NCBI RefSeq assembly: GCF_036429475.1
Contig: NZ_CP144125.1
Coordinates: forward strand, 1,240,001 to 1,304,000
Length of the DNA stretch: 64,000 nucleotides
Source: Halalkalicoccus sp. CGA53
GTDB taxonomy: Archaea > Halobacteriota > Halobacteria > Halobacteriales > Halalkalicoccaceae
Direction of reading: 5' to 3'
Each line of letters starts with the position of its first letter. Within the stretch, counting starts at the first letter, position 1. This document shows, piece after piece, positions 51,640 to 60,811 of the stretch. The notes under the pieces are model-generated. The model saw nothing but the letters and a program-made list of their open reading frames with translations. It had not been told where the DNA came from and made no database searches. Made by a program: the position numbers and the translations under genes.

Positions 51640-53901
51640 ATGCGCGATGCGGGGCACGACGGCATCAGCGTTCTCCACGTCGACGACGACGCGGCGTTCG
51701 CCTCGCTCACCGCGACCTACCTCGAACGGATCGACGCGGGGCTGTCCGTCCGGTCGGAGACGAGCGTCGAGACGGCCGTCGACCGGCTTTCGTCTACCGC
51801 CGTCGACTGCGTCGTGAGCGACTACGAGATGCCCGAGGCGACCGGCATCGACTTCCTCGACCGGGTTCGAGAACTGGACGCGACGCTCCCGTTCGTCCTC
51901 TACACCGGCCGGGGGAGCGAGGAGGTCGCGAGCGAGGCGATCTCTGCGGGGGTGACCGACTACGTCAGGAAGGGCGGCGGCACCGCCCAGTACGAGGTGC
52001 TCGCGAACCGGATCCGGAACGCTGTCGAGCGTCACCGCGCCGAGCGCTCGCTCTCCGAATCGGAACGGCGACACGAGCGGCTCATCGAGGCCTCGCCGGC
52101 GAGCATCGTGATCCTCGACGCCGGGGGAACGATCCGGTACGCGAACGAGAGCGCCGCGACGCTCGTCGGGGCGGACGAGGGGGCGGAACTCGTCGGCCGG
52201 GACGGGCTCTCGTTCGTCCACCCGGATGACAGAGCCCGTTCGGAGGAACGGATCCGCCGGGTCCTCGCGCGGGACGAGGTCGCCCCCCGGACCGAGACGC
52301 GACTGCTCACGCTCGACGGCGACGTCCTGTACGCGACGATCGCCACCGCGCCCGTCAGGTTCAGGGGGGAGCCGGCCGGCCAGGTCGTCCTCACCGACGT
52401 CACGGCCCGACGCGAGCGCGAGGAGGCGCTTCGGACCCGGGCGGCGGTAATGAACACGGCGCTCGACGGCCTCGCGCTCCTCTCCGGGGAGACGTTCGTC
52501 GAGGTGAACCGGGCACACGCCCGGATCTACGGCTACGAGCGTCCGGAGGAGCTCGTCGGGACGTCGTGGAAGCGCCTGTACGCCGAGCGGGAAGCCGACC
52601 GGATCGAGCACGAGGTCCTGCCCACGCTCGACGAGGAGGGCGGGTGGCGCGGGGAGGCGACCGGCCGCAGACGCGACGGTAGCGGGTTCCCGCAGTCGCT
52701 CTCGCTGTCGCTCACCGACGACGGCGAGATCGTCTGTGCGGTCCGGGACGTGACGGAACAGCACGACCGCGAGCGGACGCTCGGCGTCCTCCACGAGGCG
52801 ACCCGGCGGCTGATGCGCGCCGGGGACCGTGGGGAGGTCGCCCGGATCACGACGGACGCCGCGAGCGACGTCCTCGGCTTCCCGCTCTGTTCGGTCCGCT
52901 GGTACGACGCCGAACGTGACACGCTGGTGCCCGCGGCGGTCACCGACGAGGCGCGCACGCTGCTCGGCCCGATCGAGCCCTTCGAGCGGGGCGAGAGCCT
53001 CTCGTGGGAGACGTTCGACACCGGAGAGCCGTCGGTCTTCGAGGACATCCGCGAACACGACGCCGCGCTTCACGCGACCACCGGCGTCCGGACGATGCTG
53101 AAGCTCTCGCTGGGCGAGCACGGCCTGCTCACGATGGCGTCGAGGACCGCCGACGACGTCACCGACGCGGACGTCTTCCTCGCCCGGGTCCTGGCGGCGA
53201 ACGCCGAGGCCGCGCTCGACCGCGCGGAGCGAGAGCGCCAACTCCGAGAACGAGAGTGCGAACTCACCCGGCAGAACGAACGTCTCGACGAGTTCGCGAG
53301 CCTGCTCGCCCACGACATCCGGAACCCGCTCAACGTCGCGACCGGCCACCTCGACCTGGCCCGCCGCGAGCGCGAGAGCGACCATCTGGATCGCGTCGCG
53401 TCCGCGCACGACCGGATGGCGGCGCTCGTCGAGGACGTCCTCTCGCTCGCGAGGGAGGGCGGGCGGATCGAGGCGCCGGAGCCGGTCGACCTCGCCCGCA
53501 CCGCCGAACGGGCGTGGGCAAACGTCGAGATTGGCGAGACGACGCTCGAGACGACCTGCTCTCGACCGGTTCTCGGGGATACCCGCCGGCTCGAACGCCT
53601 CTTCGAGAACCTCTTTCGGAACGCGGTCGAACACGCGGGCGAGGAGGTGACGGTCCGCGTCGGCGACCTCCCCGACGGGTTCTTCGTCGCCGACGACGGC
53701 CCGGGCGTCCCGGAGGACGTCGTGGAGGACCTCTTCGAACCGGGGATCACCGCCTCGCCCACGGGAACGGGGTTCGGGCTGGCGATCGTCGAGGAGATCG
53801 CCGAGGCACACGGCTGGTCGGTCACCCTCCGGGAGAGCGCGTCCGGAGCCCGGTTCGAGGTCCGGGGCGTCCACGACGCCACCGCCGACACGGACGGCTG
53901 A
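51640..53901 (+). CDS. Sensor histidine kinase: receiver, two PAS, GAF, HisKA, HATPase
   Basis: 753 residues, no membrane helices, so cytosolic. An N-terminal receiver (about 8-125; phospho-acceptor Asp61 in CVVSDYEMPE, and Lys in YVRKGGG) is followed by PAS1 (about 145-260), PAS2 (about 262-380), a GAF-type domain (about 385-530), HisKA with His558 in LLAHDIRNPLN, and a HATPase_c (N box ENLFRNAVEHA, G1 DDGPGVP, G2 GTGFGLAIVEEI). Hybrid layout common in haloarchaea. It is directly upstream of the nitrile hydratase operon but has its own TATA (GATTATGCC, about 51608-51616); a functional link is unproven. Confidence 0.92.
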   Translation: MRDAGHDGISVLHVDDDAAFASLTATYLERIDAGLSVRSETSVETAVDRLSSTAVDCVVSDYEMPEATGIDFLDRVRELDATLPFVLYTGRGSEEVASEAISAGVTDYVRKGGGTAQYEVLANRIRNAVERHRAERSLSESERRHERLIEASPASIVILDAGGTIRYANESAATLVGADEGAELVGRDGLSFVHPDDRARSEERIRRVLARDEVAPRTETRLLTLDGDVLYATIATAPVRFRGEPAGQVVLTDVTARREREEALRTRAAVMNTALDGLALLSGETFVEVNRAHARIYGYERPEELVGTSWKRLYAEREADRIEHEVLPTLDEEGGWRGEATGRRRDGSGFPQSLSLSLTDDGEIVCAVRDVTEQHDRERTLGVLHEATRRLMRAGDRGEVARITTDAASDVLGFPLCSVRWYDAERDTLVPAAVTDEARTLLGPIEPFERGESLSWETFDTGEPSVFEDIREHDAALHATTGVRTMLKLSLGEHGLLTMASRTADDVTDADVFLARVLAANAEAALDRAERERQLRERECELTRQNERLDEFASLLAHDIRNPLNVATGHLDLARRERESDHLDRVASAHDRMAALVEDVLSLAREGGRIEAPEPVDLARTAERAWANVEIGETTLETTCSRPVLGDTRRLERLFENLFRNAVEHAGEEVTVRVGDLPDGFFVADDGPGVPEDVVEDLFEPGITASPTGTGFGLAIVEEIAEAHGWSVTLRESASGARFEVRGVHDATADTDG

Positions 53902-53943
53902 TCGAACGCATAGGACTATGCCCGTGTGAGCGGTGTGTGCGCT

Positions 53944-54615
53944 ATGAACGGGATCCACGACCTTGGCGGAATGGACGGCTTCGGTCCACCCGACCATCAC
54001 GAGCACGAGGGAGCGTTCGGCGAACCGTGGGAGGGCGGCGTCTACAGCCTCTTCGTCGCGACGCTCGGCAACGGGCTCGCCGAGCTCGACGAGTTCCGGT
54101 ACGCGATCGAACGGATGCCCCCGGAGACGTACCTCGACGCGAGCTACTACGAGCGCTGGCTCGGCGCGTTCGAGACGCTACTGCTCGAAGCGGGCGTGAT
54201 CGATCCCGAAGAGGTCGAAGAGCGGGTGACCGCGTTCGAGACCGAGGAGATGTCGCGCCCTGCCCACGAATCGGGGGTGTCGTTCGCGGCGCTCGCCGAC
54301 GGCGTGGCGGACGCCTACTCCTCGCGGCGCGAGGGGCGGGAGCCGCGGTTCGCGGCGGGAGAGCGGGTGAGGGTGCGACGCGAGGCGCCGCGGGGACACA
54401 CGCGGTGTCCGCGCTACGCTCGCGGCGCGACCGGCACCGTCGATCGGGTGGTCGGAACACACGTCCTCCCCGACGCGAACGCCCACGGCGAGGCGGGCGC
54501 GGAGCCGGTCTACACCGTCGGGATCGAGGCCGAGGAGCTCTGGGGATCGGAGGGGGAGACGAACGGGTCCGTCCACCTCGACCTCTGGGAGTCGTATCTG
54601 GGGGTGCCGGAGTGA
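53944..54615 (+). CDS. nthB: Nitrile hydratase beta subunit
   Basis: 223 residues from the ATG at 53944; MNGIHDLGGMDGFGP is the family's canonical N-terminus, so the GTG at 53926 is rejected. Helical part ends near residue 100 (TYLDASYYERWLGAFETLLLEAGVI). The C-terminal SH3-like barrel starts at FAAGERVRVRREAPRGHTRCPRYARGATGTV, with the Arg-rich loop that contacts the alpha metal centre, and ends SVHLDLWESYL. Together with the alpha subunit it hydrates nitriles to amides. TATA-like GACTATGCC (about 53912-53920) lies 28 bases upstream. Order beta-alpha-accessory is typical of cobalt-type enzymes. Confidence 0.93.
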   Translation: MNGIHDLGGMDGFGPPDHHEHEGAFGEPWEGGVYSLFVATLGNGLAELDEFRYAIERMPPETYLDASYYERWLGAFETLLLEAGVIDPEEVEERVTAFETEEMSRPAHESGVSFAALADGVADAYSSRREGREPRFAAGERVRVRREAPRGHTRCPRYARGATGTVDRVVGTHVLPDANAHGEAGAEPVYTVGIEAEELWGSEGETNGSVHLDLWESYLGVPE

Positions 54616-55235
54616 CCGAACGAACGCACGGCCGACCGGAGATCGTGGAGGAGCTCGCAGAGCGCGACCCGGAGGCCCGCGCACGGGCGCTCCAGTCGCT
54701 GCTGATCGAGCAGGGACTCCTCTCGACCGACGCGATCGACGCGGTGATCTCCCACTACGAGACCGAGGTCGGGCCGATGAACGGCGCGCGCGTCGTCGCC
54801 CGGGCGTGGACCGATTCGAGCTACAGAGAGCGGCTGCTCTCGGACGCGACGGGCGCGATCGGTGAGGTAGGGATCGAGGTCGACGAGGACGTCGTCGAGA
54901 TCCGGGCGGTGGCGAACTCCTCCGACACTCACAACGTCGTGGTCTGTACGCTCTGTTCGTGCTACCCGTGGACCGTGCTCGGGCTGGCGCCGACCTGGTA
55001 CAAGTCGCCGGAGTACCGCTCGCGGATCGTCCGCGAACCCCGCGCGATGCTCGCCGAGAGCTTCGACCTCGATCTCGACGAGTCGATCGGGATCGACGTC
55101 TGGGACAGCACCTCCGAGGTGCGGTACATGGTGCTCCCGCAGCGCCCGCCCGGGACCGAGGACCTGGACGAGGAGGAACTCGCGGAACGTGTCACGCGTG
55201 ACGCGATGATCGGCGTGGAACGGCTCGCGCCATGA
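54612..55235 (+). CDS. nthA: Nitrile hydratase alpha subunit, cobalt-type
   Basis: 207 residues, GTG start overlapping the beta stop (GTGA). The metal-binding claw is VCTLCSCYPW with C112, C115, S116 and C117; Thr after the first Cys is the cobalt-type form (iron enzymes have Ser). Following VLGLAPTWYKSPEYRSRIVREPR is also family-typical. In known enzymes the second and third cysteines are oxidised to sulfinic and sulfenic acids. The alpha subunit lies between beta and the accessory gene with four-base overlaps on both sides. Confidence 0.95.
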   Translation: MTERTHGRPEIVEELAERDPEARARALQSLLIEQGLLSTDAIDAVISHYETEVGPMNGARVVARAWTDSSYRERLLSDATGAIGEVGIEVDEDVVEIRAVANSSDTHNVVVCTLCSCYPWTVLGLAPTWYKSPEYRSRIVREPRAMLAESFDLDLDESIGIDVWDSTSEVRYMVLPQRPPGTEDLDEEELAERVTRDAMIGVERLAP

Positions 55236-55606
55236 GCCTTGACGATGCCCGTACGGCAGAGGGTCTGCCGACCGACGGCGAGGAACCGGTCTTCGACTCG
55301 CCCTGGCAGGCCCGCGCGTTCGCGCTCGCGGTGGCGACGACCGATACCAGCCCCCTCGACTGGCACACCTTTCAGGCCGAACTCGTCGCGGCAATCGACG
55401 ACGGGATCGGCGAGGACGGGGAGGGGATCGAGGAGGTTTACTACCGGCAGTGGCTCACCGCGATCGAGACGCTGCTGGTCGACCGCGGCGTCGTCGACGC
55501 CGGGGCGCTCGCCGACCGCGTGGACGAGTTCGAGGTCGGCGAACGCGACGCCTCCGAGTTCGTCGAGGGCGACCCGCACGGCCACTCCCACGGCCACGAC
55601 CACTGA
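55232..55606 (+). CDS. Nitrile hydratase accessory protein with His-rich tail
   Basis: 124 residues. It resembles the N-terminal part of the beta subunit, as the cobalt-type activator (P14K/Nha3-like) does: FDSPWQARAFALAVATTD and EEVYYRQWLTAIETLLVDRGVVD. These activators carry the metal-loaded alpha subunit for exchange into the enzyme. The C-terminus ends HGHSHGHDH, a possible metal-binding tail that I do not recall in bacterial activators. ATG overlaps the alpha stop (ATGA), completing a three-gene operon. No amidase gene is adjacent. Confidence 0.88.
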   Translation: MSLDDARTAEGLPTDGEEPVFDSPWQARAFALAVATTDTSPLDWHTFQAELVAAIDDGIGEDGEGIEEVYYRQWLTAIETLLVDRGVVDAGALADRVDEFEVGERDASEFVEGDPHGHSHGHDH

Positions 55607-55655
55607 TCCGATCCCGGAACCCGGTGTACGCGACACCACGGCCGGGGAGGACGTC

Positions 55656-55856
55656 TCACCCGTCGAGATCGGGATCGAACAGCTCCTCGACGGCGCAGTC
55701 GTAGTGGCGGGCGAGCTTGAACGCGAGCCCTAGCGACGGGTCGTAGCGCTCGCGCTCGATCGAGTTGATGGTCTGGCGTGTGACGCCGACGGCGGCGGCC
55801 AGGTCCGCCTGACTCTCCCCGGTTCGGCTTCGCCGTTCTCGAAGGTCGTTTCTCAT
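55656..55856 (-). CDS. Cro/CI-type helix-turn-helix regulator
   Basis: 66 residues from the ATG at 55856. Nearly the whole protein is one HTH_3 domain: LRERRSRTGESQADLAAAVGVTRQTINSIERERYDPSLGLAFKLARHYDCAVEELF. This short form (YgzD-like) is usually paired with a DUF2178-type membrane protein, as here: its ATG overlaps the upstream stop by four bases. Two palindromes in the operon promoter (56307-56339) are the likely binding sites. Confidence 0.92.
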   Translation of the reverse strand: MRNDLRERRSRTGESQADLAAAVGVTRQTINSIERERYDPSLGLAFKLARHYDCAVEELFDPDLDG

Positions 55857-56269
55857 GCACGTCGCCGGAGCACCGTGTAGATCACGCCGAAGACGGTGTA
55901 GACCGCGACGAGCGCCCACACCGACCCGTGGAACGACGGTGGGAGCGTGAGGACGCCGCCGTCTTCGAGCACGAGGCCGCCGGGCGCGCCGATGACGAGC
56001 GCGAACGCGAAGACGCCGAGGGTGTAGTCGCTCGCCCGCCGTTCGATGGCTGTCTCGCGCTCGTCGTACAGTCTCACCGGGCTGAACCACCAGACGCCGA
56101 GCATGCCGGCGAAGCCGGCCCAGTAGACCAGCACCCCGGCGAGGAACTGCTCGAGGCGGATCCCCACGAGCAGGCCGAGGATGCCGACCGCGAGCGAGCC
56201 GTAGATCAGTCGTCTGTGTCGCCGCCGTCGGGCGAGCGGTTCCGTCGTCGGTGCTGCGTGGTCGGTCAT
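55853..56269 (-). CDS. DUF2178-family membrane protein
   Basis: 138 residues, four predicted membrane helices (about 22-38, 42-62, 85-105 and 115-133) with a conserved cytoplasmic loop VRLYDERETAIERRASDYTLGVFAFA. That D-E-R-E segment is the hallmark of DUF2178. The pair of DUF2178 protein and small HTH regulator recurs in archaea; function is unknown, and a membrane-stress or signalling role is a guess. First gene of the two-gene operon, with tandem operators upstream. Confidence 0.82.
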   Translation of the reverse strand: MTDHAAPTTEPLARRRRHRRLIYGSLAVGILGLLVGIRLEQFLAGVLVYWAGFAGMLGVWWFSPVRLYDERETAIERRASDYTLGVFAFALVIGAPGGLVLEDGGVLTLPPSFHGSVWALVAVYTVFGVIYTVLRRRA

Positions 56270-56290
56270 GGTAGATGGATGTCACCGGGT

Positions 56291-56339
56291 GTAAAGCACA
56301 CGTGCCGTAAAGTATCCTTTACAGTAAAGCACCCTTTAC
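56291..56339. promoter_or_regulatory. Tandem operator array before the DUF2178/HTH operon
   Basis: Two palindromes of the form GTAAAG-N4-CTTTAC lie one base apart at 56307-56322 and 56324-56339, with an extra GTAAAG half-site at 56291-56296. They are about 38-70 bases upstream of the ATG at 56269, with AT-rich TTTAC blocks that may also serve as the TATA region. The 17-bp spacing (under two helical turns) fits binding of two dimers of the small HTH protein. Beyond this, 56345-56588 shows no gene. Confidence 0.75.
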
Positions 56340-56588
56340 ACTACATCCTAAAACTATCGCTCGCGGTCAGCCCCCCGCTGTCGTCGTCATACGAACCGAC
56401 AAGACGCGGTCGAACGGCCCACTCTCGATCGGACGTCTCTGACGACCGTGGTTCCCTGAACGGGCACGCGAGCGACGTCCGCAGCGATCGCCCAGAGCGT
56501 CCGCCGTCGGTCGTCGACGGTCACCCCCCTTCCCGCCGCTCGACGGCGCGATACACTCCGTCTCATCCGGACGACGGTGTTCGATCGT

Positions 56589-57380
56589 TCATTCGGCCAG
56601 AAAGCGCCGGACGCTCGCGTCGAAGCCCCGTTTCCGCTCCTCGAACGCACCGTGGCCGGTGCCGGGAAGCAGCTTGAGCGTCGCGTCCGGTATCACGTGG
56701 GCGGACTCCGCGATCAGGTCGGCGGGAAAGAGCGGGTCCTCGTCGCCGCCGATCACGAGCGTCGGCACGTCGATCTCGCTGAGAACGTCCCCCGCGTCGT
56801 GATCGAGGCAGGCGGTCACGGAGACGAGGAAGTCCTCCGGCTCCTCGGGTCGCGGGACGACCGGCGGGAGCCGTCCGAGCGCGCCGTAGACCGCCCGGCG
56901 GCGCGGGTCCTCGTACGTCACCCTGATCGTATCTCGATACAGCTCCTTCCAGTGGTTCCCACGTCCCAACTCTCGCCAGCGTTCGACGATCCGTCTCCCC
57001 TCCTCGCCCAGGCGATGTGCGGCGACGGCGATCACCAGTCGGTCGACGCACCCCGAGTGCTCAGCGCCGAGGTGTTGGGCGATCAGCCCACCCATCGAGA
57101 CGCCGAGGACGTCCGCGGGGCCGACCTCCGCCAGTACCTTCGCGTAGCCCGTCGCCATCTCCCGCGTCGTCGTTTTACCACCGAGTCCCCTCGGTCGACT
57201 CACCACGTGGACGGTGTACCTGTCGGTGAACGGCCGGTAGTACCGCCGGAGGACGAGTCGAACGACCAGGGGCGTCTCCGTAGGCCCCAGCGCGTCACCC
57301 AGCCCGGGCAGTACGACCAGCGTTCGGGAGCCGTCACCGACGGTGATCGTCGGGTGACCGGCAACCGTCTCTCGGTCCAT
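56589..57380 (-). CDS. Alpha/beta hydrolase
   Basis: 263 residues. LVVLPGLGDALG (oxyanion region), nucleophile in VLGVSMGGLIAQHLG (about residue 95), acid in VIGGDEDPLFPAD (about 213), and catalytic His in LLPGTGHGAFEE (about 245) form a complete triad. The lid region (about 130-190) is helical. It is unrelated in detail to the hydrolases at 306 and 38609. It lies 40 bases before the 3' end of a PAPS-reductase-like gene on the same strand. Substrate unknown. Confidence 0.85.
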   Translation of the reverse strand: MDRETVAGHPTITVGDGSRTLVVLPGLGDALGPTETPLVVRLVLRRYYRPFTDRYTVHVVSRPRGLGGKTTTREMATGYAKVLAEVGPADVLGVSMGGLIAQHLGAEHSGCVDRLVIAVAAHRLGEEGRRIVERWRELGRGNHWKELYRDTIRVTYEDPRRRAVYGALGRLPPVVPRPEEPEDFLVSVTACLDHDAGDVLSEIDVPTLVIGGDEDPLFPADLIAESAHVIPDATLKLLPGTGHGAFEERKRGFDASVRRFLAE

Positions 57381-57420
57381 ACCGGGAAAACGGTCGGGGC
57401 GTGGATAGCTCTCCCCCCGA

Positions 57421-58377
57421 TCACATGTAGCCCAGATCGCGAAGCCGCGCCATCACGCCCTCCTTGTCCTGGGCGCGGCCCTCGCGCTCGGTCGTTCCCT
57501 CCAGGTCCTGGAGCCACGCGGGGTGGTCGGCGCTCTTTCCCGACCCTCCCTGCGTGCCGAGCGAGCGAAAGCCCTCGAAGTACTTCGGCGAGACCGGGAG
57601 GTCCTCCGGTACCAGGTCGTTCGGCAGGTCTTCGGAGCTCTCGGGGACGTATCCCACGGGAAAGCCCTCGACCAGGTCGGGGACGACGAAGCGCCAGAAG
57701 GCGTCCCAGACCGCCCGTTCGTCGAACTGCAGGATCGGATGGATCCGGTCGTGCGGCGGGTACTTCTCGGAGTCGTGACGCGGGCTGAAGAACGTTTCAT
57801 TCGCCCTTGCGTCCTGTTCGTCCCAGCGAACGCCCGAGAAGATCCCGTCGAAGCCCTCTCGCTCTACGATCTCGTTGAGCGCGACGGTCTTCAGCAGGTG
57901 GTTGCCCTCGTAGCTGTCGGCGGTGAATTTCAGCACCTTCTCGTCGTACTCCAACTTCTCCCGAAGTTCGCGCCGGTTCCGCTCGTTCAGGTCGGCTACG
58001 GGAACCTCGTCGCCGGGATCGACGCCGAGGCGTTCGAAGTCCTCGTTTCGGGCGTAGCGCAGGTCGAGGTCAAGGCGCTCGGCCCACTGATCGGCGAACG
58101 CGAGCGTCTCGGGGAAGTGTTCATAGTGGTCGATGAAAACGACCGGAGGGAGTTCGTGGTCGAACTCGGCACAGACCTCGAGGAGCACGTAGAGCACGAG
58201 CGTCGAGTCCTTCCCGCCGGTCCACATCACCGCCGGGTTCTCGTACTGTTCGAGGGCGAGACGCGTCACCTCGACCGCCTTTCCCAGTTTCTCCTCCATC
58301 GCGGGGTAGTCCTCCGGGCCTTCGTCCCTGCCGTCGTCGTAATCGACCTCGACGTACCCGGGAAAGCTCTGGCTCAT
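57421..58377 (-). CDS. PAPS-reductase-family PP-loop protein, copy A
   Basis: 318 residues from the ATG at 58377; an ATG at 58428 would add 17 atypical residues. The ATP-pyrophosphatase loop is VMWTGGKDSTLVLYVL (about residue 50), followed by FIDHYEHFPETLAF. Further marks are GNHLLKTVALNEI, FSGVRWDEQDARANETFFSPR and the C-terminal PVSPKYFEGFRSLG and RLRDLGYM. Members of this group include APS/PAPS reductases and related sulfurtransferases. It is very similar to the gene at 59487-60458 along its whole length. No downstream sulfite reductase is visible. Confidence 0.85.
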   Translation of the reverse strand: MSQSFPGYVEVDYDDGRDEGPEDYPAMEEKLGKAVEVTRLALEQYENPAVMWTGGKDSTLVLYVLLEVCAEFDHELPPVVFIDHYEHFPETLAFADQWAERLDLDLRYARNEDFERLGVDPGDEVPVADLNERNRRELREKLEYDEKVLKFTADSYEGNHLLKTVALNEIVEREGFDGIFSGVRWDEQDARANETFFSPRHDSEKYPPHDRIHPILQFDERAVWDAFWRFVVPDLVEGFPVGYVPESSEDLPNDLVPEDLPVSPKYFEGFRSLGTQGGSGKSADHPAWLQDLEGTTEREGRAQDKEGVMARLRDLGYM

Positions 58378-58596
58378 TCGTCGGGGAGAGACGAGACTCT
58401 CGGCTATCACCTTTGTCATGTGGATCACCGGACTGGCTGCGGTCCCCGTTCGGCCGAGTCTCGACGCGTCTGTATCGGGATGACGTGAGAATGGAGGTCG
58501 GGTTCGGGGGGGAGGGTCCCCTCTCGCTCTCTCCGGCGCGGATCGACCGGTCCGTCGTCGGTCGAATCTGGGTAGCCGACACTTCCGACACGGCAG

Positions 58597-58609
58597 AAAG
58601 GGTTTAGAT
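58597..58609 (+). promoter_or_regulatory. TATA-like box of the 58630-59226 gene
   Basis: AGGGTTTAGATAC, core centred about 26 bases before the GTG start at 58630, supporting that start. Confidence 0.5.
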
Positions 58610-58629
58610 ACTCACATGTTCGACACGCT

Positions 58630-59226
58630 GTGAACGGGGACGAGTACGATCACCCGCTGCTGGGCGTGAACAGAGGCTACACACTCGTCGGGTTCCTCTA
58701 CCTGATCCTGGGTGGGATCGTCGCGGTCGCCGATCCCGTACACACCTCCGGGGTTTCCTCCGCCGCAGAACTCCTCGTTCCCGCGTCGCTGGTCGTACCG
58801 TTCCTCTATGCGGTGAGCAACGGTGGCCCGCTTCTCGCGTTTCTGTTGAGTCAGCAGACGCTCGGGGCGATGTACCTTCTCGATCTGCTCACCGGGGGAG
58901 CGACCGTCGACCCGGTCGCCCCCCTGATCGCGCTGATGGTGGGTGCGGGAGCCGCCGGGGTGGCGGTCTACGCGACCGGCGTCCACCGTACCCGCCAGGT
59001 TCGCGTCCCCGTCTACGAGGGGTACCGGGCGAACCTCCTCTTCGCGTCCGTCTGTTACCTCGGAGCGGCTGTCGTTCTATGGACCACGTGGGACCACTGG
59101 CGCGTCCTGCGGGGAGCTATCCCCCTCTTCGAGGTCATCGACGGGATGTTCCTCGTCTCGGGGTGTCTCGTGATCGCGTACTGGCCGATCTGGATTCGGA
59201 CGCTGAATCCGGCGGGCTCGGTCTGA
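58630..59226 (+). CDS. Polytopic membrane protein, unknown function
   Basis: 198 residues, GTG start. About six hydrophobic segments: residues 15-35, 45-63, 66-87, 93-115, 130-150 and 165-188, with short loops and a basic patch between the fourth and fifth (HRTRQVRVPVYEGYR). No recognised motif. It lies between the two PAPS-reductase-like paralogues but on the opposite strand. Its TGA stop is the left flanking trinucleotide of the inverted-repeat element at 59224-59327. Confidence 0.68.
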   Translation: MNGDEYDHPLLGVNRGYTLVGFLYLILGGIVAVADPVHTSGVSSAAELLVPASLVVPFLYAVSNGGPLLAFLLSQQTLGAMYLLDLLTGGATVDPVAPLIALMVGAGAAGVAVYATGVHRTRQVRVPVYEGYRANLLFASVCYLGAAVVLWTTWDHWRVLRGAIPLFEVIDGMFLVSGCLVIAYWPIWIRTLNPAGSV

Positions 59227-59327
59227 TAGGGATCATCGTAGAAGTTCATACTTCTCCGATTTCGAACCGAGCGACATCGGTGACACGTGTACCCGAGAGA
59301 TTCAGTTGACTACGATGATCCCTATGA
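59224..59327. repeat. MITE-like inverted-repeat element, copy 3, at a stop codon
   Basis: A 98-bp unit between TGA (59224-59226) and TGA (59325-59327). Ends TAGGGATCATCGTAG and CTACGATGATCCCTA pair perfectly over 15 bases. The left TGA is the stop codon of the preceding membrane-protein gene. The core aligns well by eye with copy 1 (GTTC-TACTTC, CGAACGACA/CGAGCGACA, ACGTGT-CCCGAGAG). It carries no ORF. Confidence 0.75.
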
Positions 59328-59486
59328 GTTCCCGACCGGTGAGACCCCCGCTCGCCCGTGACAGGTGTAGACGTTCACGAGTACACGCGTCAGGCGTCGT
59401 ATCCAACGAACGTCCGCACGCGCTCTATTCGACGAGTCCTCTGTGTACGAACGAGATAGAGGGTTCCAGAAATCGTCCGCCGACTC

Positions 59487-60458
59487 TCACATGTAGCCGA
59501 GATCGCGAAGCCGCTCCATCAGGTCCTCTTTGTCCTGGGCGCGGCCCTCGCGCTCGACGGTGTTCTCGACGTCCTGGAGCCAGGCGGGGTCGTCCGTGGA
59601 CTTCTGCGTGCTGACCTCGCTGCCGAGCGACCGGAAGCCCTCGAAGTACTTCGGCGAGACGGGGATGTCCTCCTGTTTCACGCCCTCCGGGAAGTCGTCG
59701 TAAGACTGCGGGACGTAGCCGTCCTCGGGGAAGTTCTCCACCGTATCGGGAACGACGAAGTACCAGAAGGCGTCCCACACGGCACGTTCGTCGAAGTGGA
59801 GGATGGGCTGGATGCGGTCGTGGGGCGGGTAGATCTCGGGGTCGTGACGCGGGCTGAAGAAGGTCTCGTCGGCGCGAGCGTCCTGTTCGTCCCAGCGTAC
59901 GCCGGAGATCACGCCGTCGATCTCGTGCTCCTCTAAGGCGTTGTTGAGCGCGACCGTCTTCAGCAGGTGGTTACCGACGTAGGTGTCGAGCAGGAACGGG
60001 AACGTCTCCTCCTCGTACTCGAGCAGGTTGCGCACGTGATGTTGGTTCTGCTCGTTCAGTTCGTCGATCTCGATGTCGTCACCGGGCTGGAGGCCGTGTC
60101 CCTCGACGTACGCGCCGACGTCCTCGTTGCGCGCGTAGATCACGTCGAGGTCCCACTCCTCGGCCCAGCGGGCGACGAACTCGTGGATCTCGTCGAAGTG
60201 CTGGTAGTGGTCGATGAACACCGCCGGGGGCACCTCGAGGTCGAAGCGCTCTGCGACCTCCTTGATGAAGTAGAGCGTGAGCGTCGAGTCCTTCCCCCCG
60301 GTCCACATCACGGCGGGCTTTTCGTACTGCTCCAGGCCCTCTCGGGTCACCTCGATCGCCTTCTCGATCTTCGCCTCGATCGTCGGGTAGTCCTCCGGCG
60401 ACTCGCTCTCGCCGTCGGTGTACTCCACGTCGAGGTACTCCGGGAAGTTCGCTGACAT
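59487..60458 (-). CDS. PAPS-reductase-family PP-loop protein, copy B
   Basis: 323 residues. Same layout as the copy at 57421: VMWTGGKDSTLTLYFI (about residue 50), FIDHYQHFDEIHEF, GNHLLKTVALNNA, ISGVRWDEQDARADETFFSPRHD, PVSPKYFEGFRSLG and the ending RLRDLGYM. Differences cluster in the middle (residues about 105-150) and near SEVSTQKSTDDPAWLQ. Probably a sulfur-assimilation reductase or a related ATP-dependent enzyme; duplication may reflect different partners. An inverted repeat CACAA-N5-TTGTG occurs upstream at 60485-60499. Confidence 0.85.
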   Translation of the reverse strand: MSANFPEYLDVEYTDGESESPEDYPTIEAKIEKAIEVTREGLEQYEKPAVMWTGGKDSTLTLYFIKEVAERFDLEVPPAVFIDHYQHFDEIHEFVARWAEEWDLDVIYARNEDVGAYVEGHGLQPGDDIEIDELNEQNQHHVRNLLEYEEETFPFLLDTYVGNHLLKTVALNNALEEHEIDGVISGVRWDEQDARADETFFSPRHDPEIYPPHDRIQPILHFDERAVWDAFWYFVVPDTVENFPEDGYVPQSYDDFPEGVKQEDIPVSPKYFEGFRSLGSEVSTQKSTDDPAWLQDVENTVEREGRAQDKEDLMERLRDLGYM

Positions 60459-60811
60459 CGTAATTAGATCTCATTAGGCGTTCGCACAAAGTAATTGTGG
60501 GACACACGGTACCAGACGCCGGGTCAGCGGTAGGGCGCTGTCGGGTCTTCGACGTCGCGGAGCGCTGGCTGTCTCGGTATCGAGTTCCCCGTCACCCCTG
60601 GTCGGGGCCGGAGTCCCTCGGGAGCACTCGATGGGGAGACGGTGGTGCCGTCGCCCGGATCGGTCGTCGACCGACTCGGTTGCGACGGCGGATTGCTCCG
60701 TCGTCCGGTGGCCGGACCGAAGGCCCTCGACCGGCCGTCGAGGTGACCTCAGCCCGCTCGCGCGAGTCGGAGCTCTCCGGCGCGGCCGACACGGGTTAGC
60801 TATTTGTCTTC
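60459..60811. other. Intergenic region between divergent genes
   Basis: About 350 bases. The left end is AT-rich (GTAATTAGATCTCATTAG, 60459-60477) and includes an inverted repeat CACAA-N5-TTGTG at 60485-60499, the probable promoter and a possible operator for the PAPS-reductase-like gene. The middle shows no gene. The right end has TTAGCTATTTG (60796-60806) before the next gene. Confidence 0.5.

Follow-up and report, generated by a model that had tools for sequence, protein, structure and literature searches.

What reads the paired palindromes that stand directly before a small operon of a haloarchaeon? The question is raised by a stretch of 64,000 nt from Halalkalicoccus sp. CGA53 (assembly GCF_036429475.1, contig NZ_CP144125.1, forward-strand positions 1,240,001 to 1,304,000), here referred to as the window, in which a minus-strand operon encodes a DUF2178-like membrane protein (P0002) followed by a 66-residue helix-turn-helix (HTH) protein (P0001). 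An earlier note on this DNA had described a GTAAAG element and two perfect GTAAAG-N4-CTTTAC palindromes one base apart, which proved exact at positions 56291-56339, and had proposed the palindromes as operators of the operon's small Cro-like protein. From sequence comparisons, we infer that the palindromes very likely constitute the autoregulatory operator of this HTH protein, which would bind them and repress its own operon. The proposal is strongly supported because the palindromes are conserved with the operon, co-occur perfectly with the HTH gene across genomes and covary with the recognition helix of the protein, which itself matches Cro-like folds.

The two sites are separated by a single base, with a start-to-start distance of 17 bp, and because the operon lies on the minus strand, the site with the higher coordinates (site 1 in Table 1) comes first in the order of transcription. 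Allowing up to two mismatches, the window contained two matches to the palindrome, while 100 dinucleotide shuffles contained 0.17 on average and none contained two. Across the 4.04-Mb genome, three places matched the single palindrome with no more than one mismatch, namely, sites 1 and 2 and one isolated copy (L003), and the tandem with at most three mismatches was unique to this locus. The regulon, which the earlier note had suggested defining by a genome search for the motif, thus comprises one site when defined by the tandem. We took the isolated copy as a chance occurrence, as it is a single site with no adjacent TATA-like element by eye; no open reading frame (ORF) of more than 61 residues starts within the 500 bases downstream of it. 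The neighboring alpha/beta hydrolase gene (56589-57380) was rejected as a target, as its end lies upstream of the operator and the gene does not follow the operator. No second P0001 homologue was found in this genome at an E value of 0.001.

A search with P0001 yielded 469 relatives, of which the best 80 loci were kept and, together with the window, made a set of 81. In the 1 kb scanned per locus, sites were scored out of 24, and a tandem was called when two sites reached at least 20/24. By this measure, 73 of the 81 haloarchaeal HTH loci carried the tandem, in 67 cases with a spacing of exactly 17 bp, and reversed upstream sequence, used as a control, peaked at 17/24. The earlier note had stated that its proposal would fall if homologous operons lacked any similar repeat; the outcome was the opposite. 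At the level of genomes, a slightly degenerate 33-mer (at most one mismatch) was found in 147 of 391 haloarchaeal genomes, representing 51 of 86 genera, and the reversed pattern was found in none of the 391. P0001 homologues (E value of ≤1e-10) were encoded in 214 of these genomes. Each of the 147 genomes carrying the tandem encodes the HTH protein, 67 encode the HTH protein alone, and 177 have neither (Fisher P = 3e-55, uncorrected for ancestry).

The properties of the HTH protein fit this role. P0001 matches HTH_3 (E value of 6e-13), and its closest solved structures by sequence are DR_2454 (9k3w; 1.7e-12) and then CylR2 (4.6e-12). Its model (predicted local distance difference test [pLDDT] score of 93.7) matched the folds of DR_2454 and CylR2 with template modeling (TM) scores of 0.88 to 0.95; the P22 c2 repressor-operator complex and the controller proteins C.AhdI and C.BclI were also among the fold matches. 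Being a single-domain HTH protein of about 66 residues that resembles CylR2 in sequence and fold, P0001 belongs to the CylR2-like Cro/C1 HTH proteins, and it shares with them a small membrane protein encoded alongside, both in the window pair and, as a DUF2178-like partner, in haloarchaea. Residues R27 and Q28 of the recognition helix are invariant across 55 aligned HTH sequences. The partner, P0002, was modeled as four long helices (pLDDT score of 89), and its family carries a nearly invariant DER motif. Against DUF2178 (PF09946) it scores 14.7 bits, below the Pfam gathering score of 22.8, and is called DUF2178-like here, where the earlier note had written DUF2178; a relative, however, reaches 25.5 bits, and the NCBI annotation of the counterpart in Halalkalicoccus reads DUF2178. 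No relatives of P0002 were found in a search of viral contigs, and a full-text search on DUF2178 in the collection of papers used found none.

Methanogen relatives link the palindrome to the recognition helix. A PF09946 search matched 124 of 294 genomes of the phylum and returned 30 loci, all outside the order of the window; in 29 of the 30, an HTH gene adjoins the PF09946 gene. Haloferax volcanii, which served as a control genome in this search, carries a PF09946 gene. Two motifs were scored, motif A (two GTAAAR-N4-YTTTAC sites) and motif B (GTTAR-N6-YTAAC). Loci with an RQT helix carried motif A in 11 of 19 cases and motif B in 2 of 19, whereas among the 10 loci with an RRET helix, none carried motif A and 6 carried motif B, all six with a spacing of 21 bp (shuffle P ≤ 0.01). 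The change from RQTI to RRETI in the recognition helix is thus accompanied by a different palindrome. Spacing also differs between groups, being almost always 17 bp in Halobacteria, 16 or 21 bp in methanogens, and 16 to 46 bp in bacteria.

Bacterial versions were found on plasmids. A P0001 relative was present in 524 plasmid records, of which 22 were chosen and fetched and 21 scored, the Halalkalicoccus plasmid (L195) being set aside as haloarchaeal; a two-site operator was called at ≥19/24 with none of 200 shuffles as good. Such operators preceded the related genes in 12 of the 21 loci, a figure that is not a rate, as the choice left out most staphylococcal and all enterococcal records. All 12 are bacterial: Streptomyces (4), Lactiplantibacillus, Arthrobacter, Labrenzia, Eleftheria, Priestia, Bernardetia, Staphylococcus carnosus, and Leptolinea. 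No two-site operator was found in the other nine scored plasmids (L194, L196, L198, L199, L203, L204, L205, L207, and L208), two of them archaeal (L194 and L207). The bacterial partner genes vary, encoding DUF2178 or DUF6442 proteins in some loci and proteins with no good family match in others. On two Bacillota plasmids (L202, 1201-1960; L199, 1201-1966), a peptide deformylase gene follows the HTH gene in place of the membrane protein gene.

Together, these data bear on whether a different regulator owns the palindromes and only happens to control the operon. Such a regulator might account for the few genomes in which the operator also precedes ABC transporter, esterase, or serine hydrolase genes. 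We nevertheless regard it as very unlikely, given that no operator genome lacks the HTH gene, that the class of palindrome tracks the class of recognition helix, and that HTH protein and operator are common to bacteria too.

The operator occupies a defined place in the promoter. In the window, a TATA-like element preceded by an element resembling the transcription factor B recognition element (BRE) lies about 10 bp upstream of site 1, and in 59 of 69 loci, TATA-like tetramers start 9 to 14 bp ahead of site 1, compared with 0 to 3 of 69 in six control windows. Archaeal promoters have a standard spacing between TATA element and start site, and judging from this spacing and the sequence logo, the palindromes should straddle the transcription start. 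The assigned ATG (63 loci) lies between 9 bp inside site 2 and 85 bp after it, and six loci (L036, L054, L061, L066, L073, and L074) have an ATG within site 2 from which the first gene can be translated. The GTAAAG that the earlier note had called an extra half-site belongs, as the better half, to a degenerate third site that abuts site 2. Its register is conserved in relatives with long leaders: of the 41 loci in which site 2 and the ATG are 20 bp or more apart, 16 have CTTTAC (at most one mismatch) at this position, the chance expectation being about 0.005 per locus. We also considered this element as the TATA box of the operon and set that reading aside because of the conserved TATA-like element upstream of site 1 and the ATG inside site 2 in several relatives; it may still hold for the window genome alone.

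Table 1. Coordinates of the operon, its operator sites and its predicted promoter elements in the window
Feature	Position	Strand	Remark
BRE-like element, CGATAG on minus strand	56354..56359	-	Upstream of TATA-like element; similar logo in relatives
TATA-like element, TTTTA on minus strand	56349..56353	-	Matching position conserved in relatives
Operator site 1 (promoter side), GTAAAG-N4-CTTTAC	56324..56339	-	Perfect palindrome; tandem kept in 73/81 loci
Predicted transcription start region, site 1/site 2 boundary	56321..56325	-	About 26 bp from TATA center; inferred
Operator site 2, GTAAAG-N4-CTTTAC	56307..56322	-	Perfect palindrome; 17 bp from site 1
Degenerate third 16-bp site	56291..56306	-	Abuts site 2; right half at register in 16/41 long-leader loci
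Conserved half of third site, GTAAAG	56291-56296	-	"Extra half-site" of the earlier note
Leader gene, 138-residue four-helix membrane protein, DUF2178-like (P0002)	55853..56269	-	Family search; model
66-residue Cro/CylR2-like HTH protein (P0001)	55656..55856	-	Overlaps leader gene by 4 bp
Recognition helix codons, residues 27-34 (RQTINSIE)	55755..55778	-	Helix 27-34 in model

This geometry suggests a simple mechanism. An HTH dimer would sit on each 16-bp palindrome and contact it through the conserved recognition helix, with R27 and Q28 reading the conserved outer bases of the half-sites, by analogy with the 434 repressor. Site 1 would fall in the interval from the TATA element to the predicted start, site 2 would take in the start and the bases just beyond it, and the weaker third site would come next. 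With sites 1 and 2 both occupied, the dimers would span the DNA from just after the TATA element to about +17 and block the loading of RNA polymerase. Occupancy would then exert negative feedback on the level of the operon itself, with site 3 occupied at higher protein concentrations. The near-fixed 17-bp spacing in Halobacteria is compatible with cooperative binding of two dimers, but the methanogen and bacterial relatives space their sites differently.

Site 2 might instead work in RNA as a hairpin of the 5′ leader, since a palindrome downstream of the start would form a stem. However, the identical palindrome of site 1 precedes the predicted start, and there is very little variation in the half-sites, which better suits a protein reading the sequence than a freely covarying stem; we regard the hairpin as extremely improbable. 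The HTH protein could also bind the sites as an activator, or as an activator and then a repressor, in the manner of restriction-modification controller proteins. These proteins share the fold and act on paired operators, where activation comes from the distal dimer and repression from the two-dimer complex (PMC4041747); the fold matches of P0001 include C.AhdI and C.BclI. Yet most loci have site 1 on the downstream side of the TATA-like element, a position that in archaea suits blocking rather than recruitment, and an activating role is therefore unlikely. C.Esp1396I and C.AhdI resemble P0001 in being small Cro-like dimers with two adjacent palindromes in their own promoter and differ in operator sequence, and the present operon shows no sign of an activation step. 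No restriction-modification genes were recognized by eye in the ORFs of 53000-60500, where no family search was run.

Several observations weigh against autoregulation by the HTH protein as proposed here. The locus and genome counts carry no correction for shared ancestry. Eight of the 81 loci (L023, L035, L041, L047, L048, L077, L079, and L083) lack a full tandem in the 1 kb scanned. The two from Halobacterium (L023 and L048) have one site before the membrane protein gene, and their HTH gene is followed by a near-perfect tandem, which in L023 precedes an ABC ATPase gene; in L035, L047, and L077, the sites are single or farther away; and L041, L079, and L083 have no site of note in the scanned upstream sequence. 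In 67 genomes, a P0001 homologue occurs without the tandem at the threshold used. A subfamily with the helix VTRQTINALEAE (L079, 2001-2195; L194, 2501-2695) keeps R27 and Q28 and lacks the operator. Site 3 of the window contains a TTTACA placed 26 bp ahead of the ATG, and the transcript may be leaderless and begin at the ATG. Finally, a PDB fold search with the DUF2178-like model gave no meaningful match, which bears on any sensing role of the partner. As a separate observation, the gene of the VTRQTINALEAE-helix subfamily in a Halobacterium plasmid comes after a gene annotated as ISH7A.

By analogy with CylR1/CylR2 of Enterococcus faecalis, the four-helix membrane protein probably detects a signal from the envelope and lifts repression by the HTH protein. 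According to PMC3709268, CylR2 represses from promoter DNA, and CylR1, for which three transmembrane helices are predicted, is suspected to be a membrane protein, its own role being unsettled. CylR2 is likewise a 66-residue Cro-like protein with a membrane-protein partner and is the second-best PDB relative of P0001, whereas the pair in the window differs in its partner, a four-helix DUF2178-like protein, in its tandem operator at an archaeal TATA promoter, and in not lying beside a toxin operon. The nearest solved structure by both sequence and fold, DR_2454 of Deinococcus radiodurans ("PbsX family"), is bacterial. Among haloarchaeal repressors, CsmR of Haloferax volcanii also uses a site near the TATA box, described in PMC13286277 as a promoter-proximal semi-palindrome, TATCA(N4)TGATA; it differs in its motif and in its large motility and chemotaxis regulon, compared with the single-site operon of the window genome. 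Literature searches on the palindrome, PbsX operators, and haloarchaeal XRE autoregulation, judged by titles and the beginnings of abstracts, returned nothing on the present operator.

In other haloarchaea, the operator precedes further genes. Summed by hand with repeats dropped, 67 distinct operator places comprised 46 before a DUF2178-like/HTH operon, 5 before a DUF2178-like gene without a nearby HTH gene, 6 before an ABC exporter, 6 before an EstD-like lipoprotein esterase with DUF3887, 2 before a beta-lactamase-fold serine hydrolase, 1 before a small membrane protein, and 1 before no clear gene. This sum overstates the share of the 14 exporter and hydrolase cases because 37 of the 67 places were picked, nearly all from multisite genomes; the 30 loci returned by a haloarchaeal class search comprised 26 DUF2178-like/HTH operons, 3 exporters, and 1 esterase. 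In one locus (L209), a region of about 8 kb holds the HTH operon together with an esterase gene and an exporter operon, and a tandem operator precedes each of these last two. In Halalkalicoccus, a serine hydrolase gene comes after the HTH gene. Tandem operators before DUF2178-like genes with no HTH gene nearby (L138, L139, L144, L149, and L155) suggest that one repressor could be common to several membrane partners.

Around the operon, by eye, three consecutive plus-strand ORFs (53926-55606) resemble nitrile hydratase beta, alpha (with a CTLCSC motif), and accessory genes, and two similar minus-strand genes (57421-58428 and 59487-60458) with a GGKDST motif resemble a duplicated gene of the 3′-phosphoadenosine-5′-phosphosulfate (PAPS) reductase type.

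Beyond the earlier note, our analysis adds deep conservation, the placement in the promoter, the nature of the half-site, the covariation, additional targets, and bacterial versions. Tentatively, and at somewhat less than even probability, the RQTIN-type helix and its GTAAAR-N4-YTTTAC code may have been kept across Archaea and Bacteria in an envelope-sensing one-component pair of membrane and HTH proteins, the spacing being refitted to each transcription machinery (16 to 21 bp at archaeal TATA promoters, mostly 26 to 46 bp in bacteria); in some haloarchaea, the pair may drive an exporter and secreted lipoprotein hydrolases as a counterpart of antimicrobial-peptide resistance circuits. The operator described here gives DUF2178-HTH pairs a concrete target site and a small regulon, and in some haloarchaea they are tied to ABC exporters and lipoprotein hydrolases. 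Because helix and palindrome covary, the evolution of the specificity code of Cro-like proteins can be tested in a compact natural system, and the same system addresses how one type of repressor serves both archaeal and bacterial promoters.
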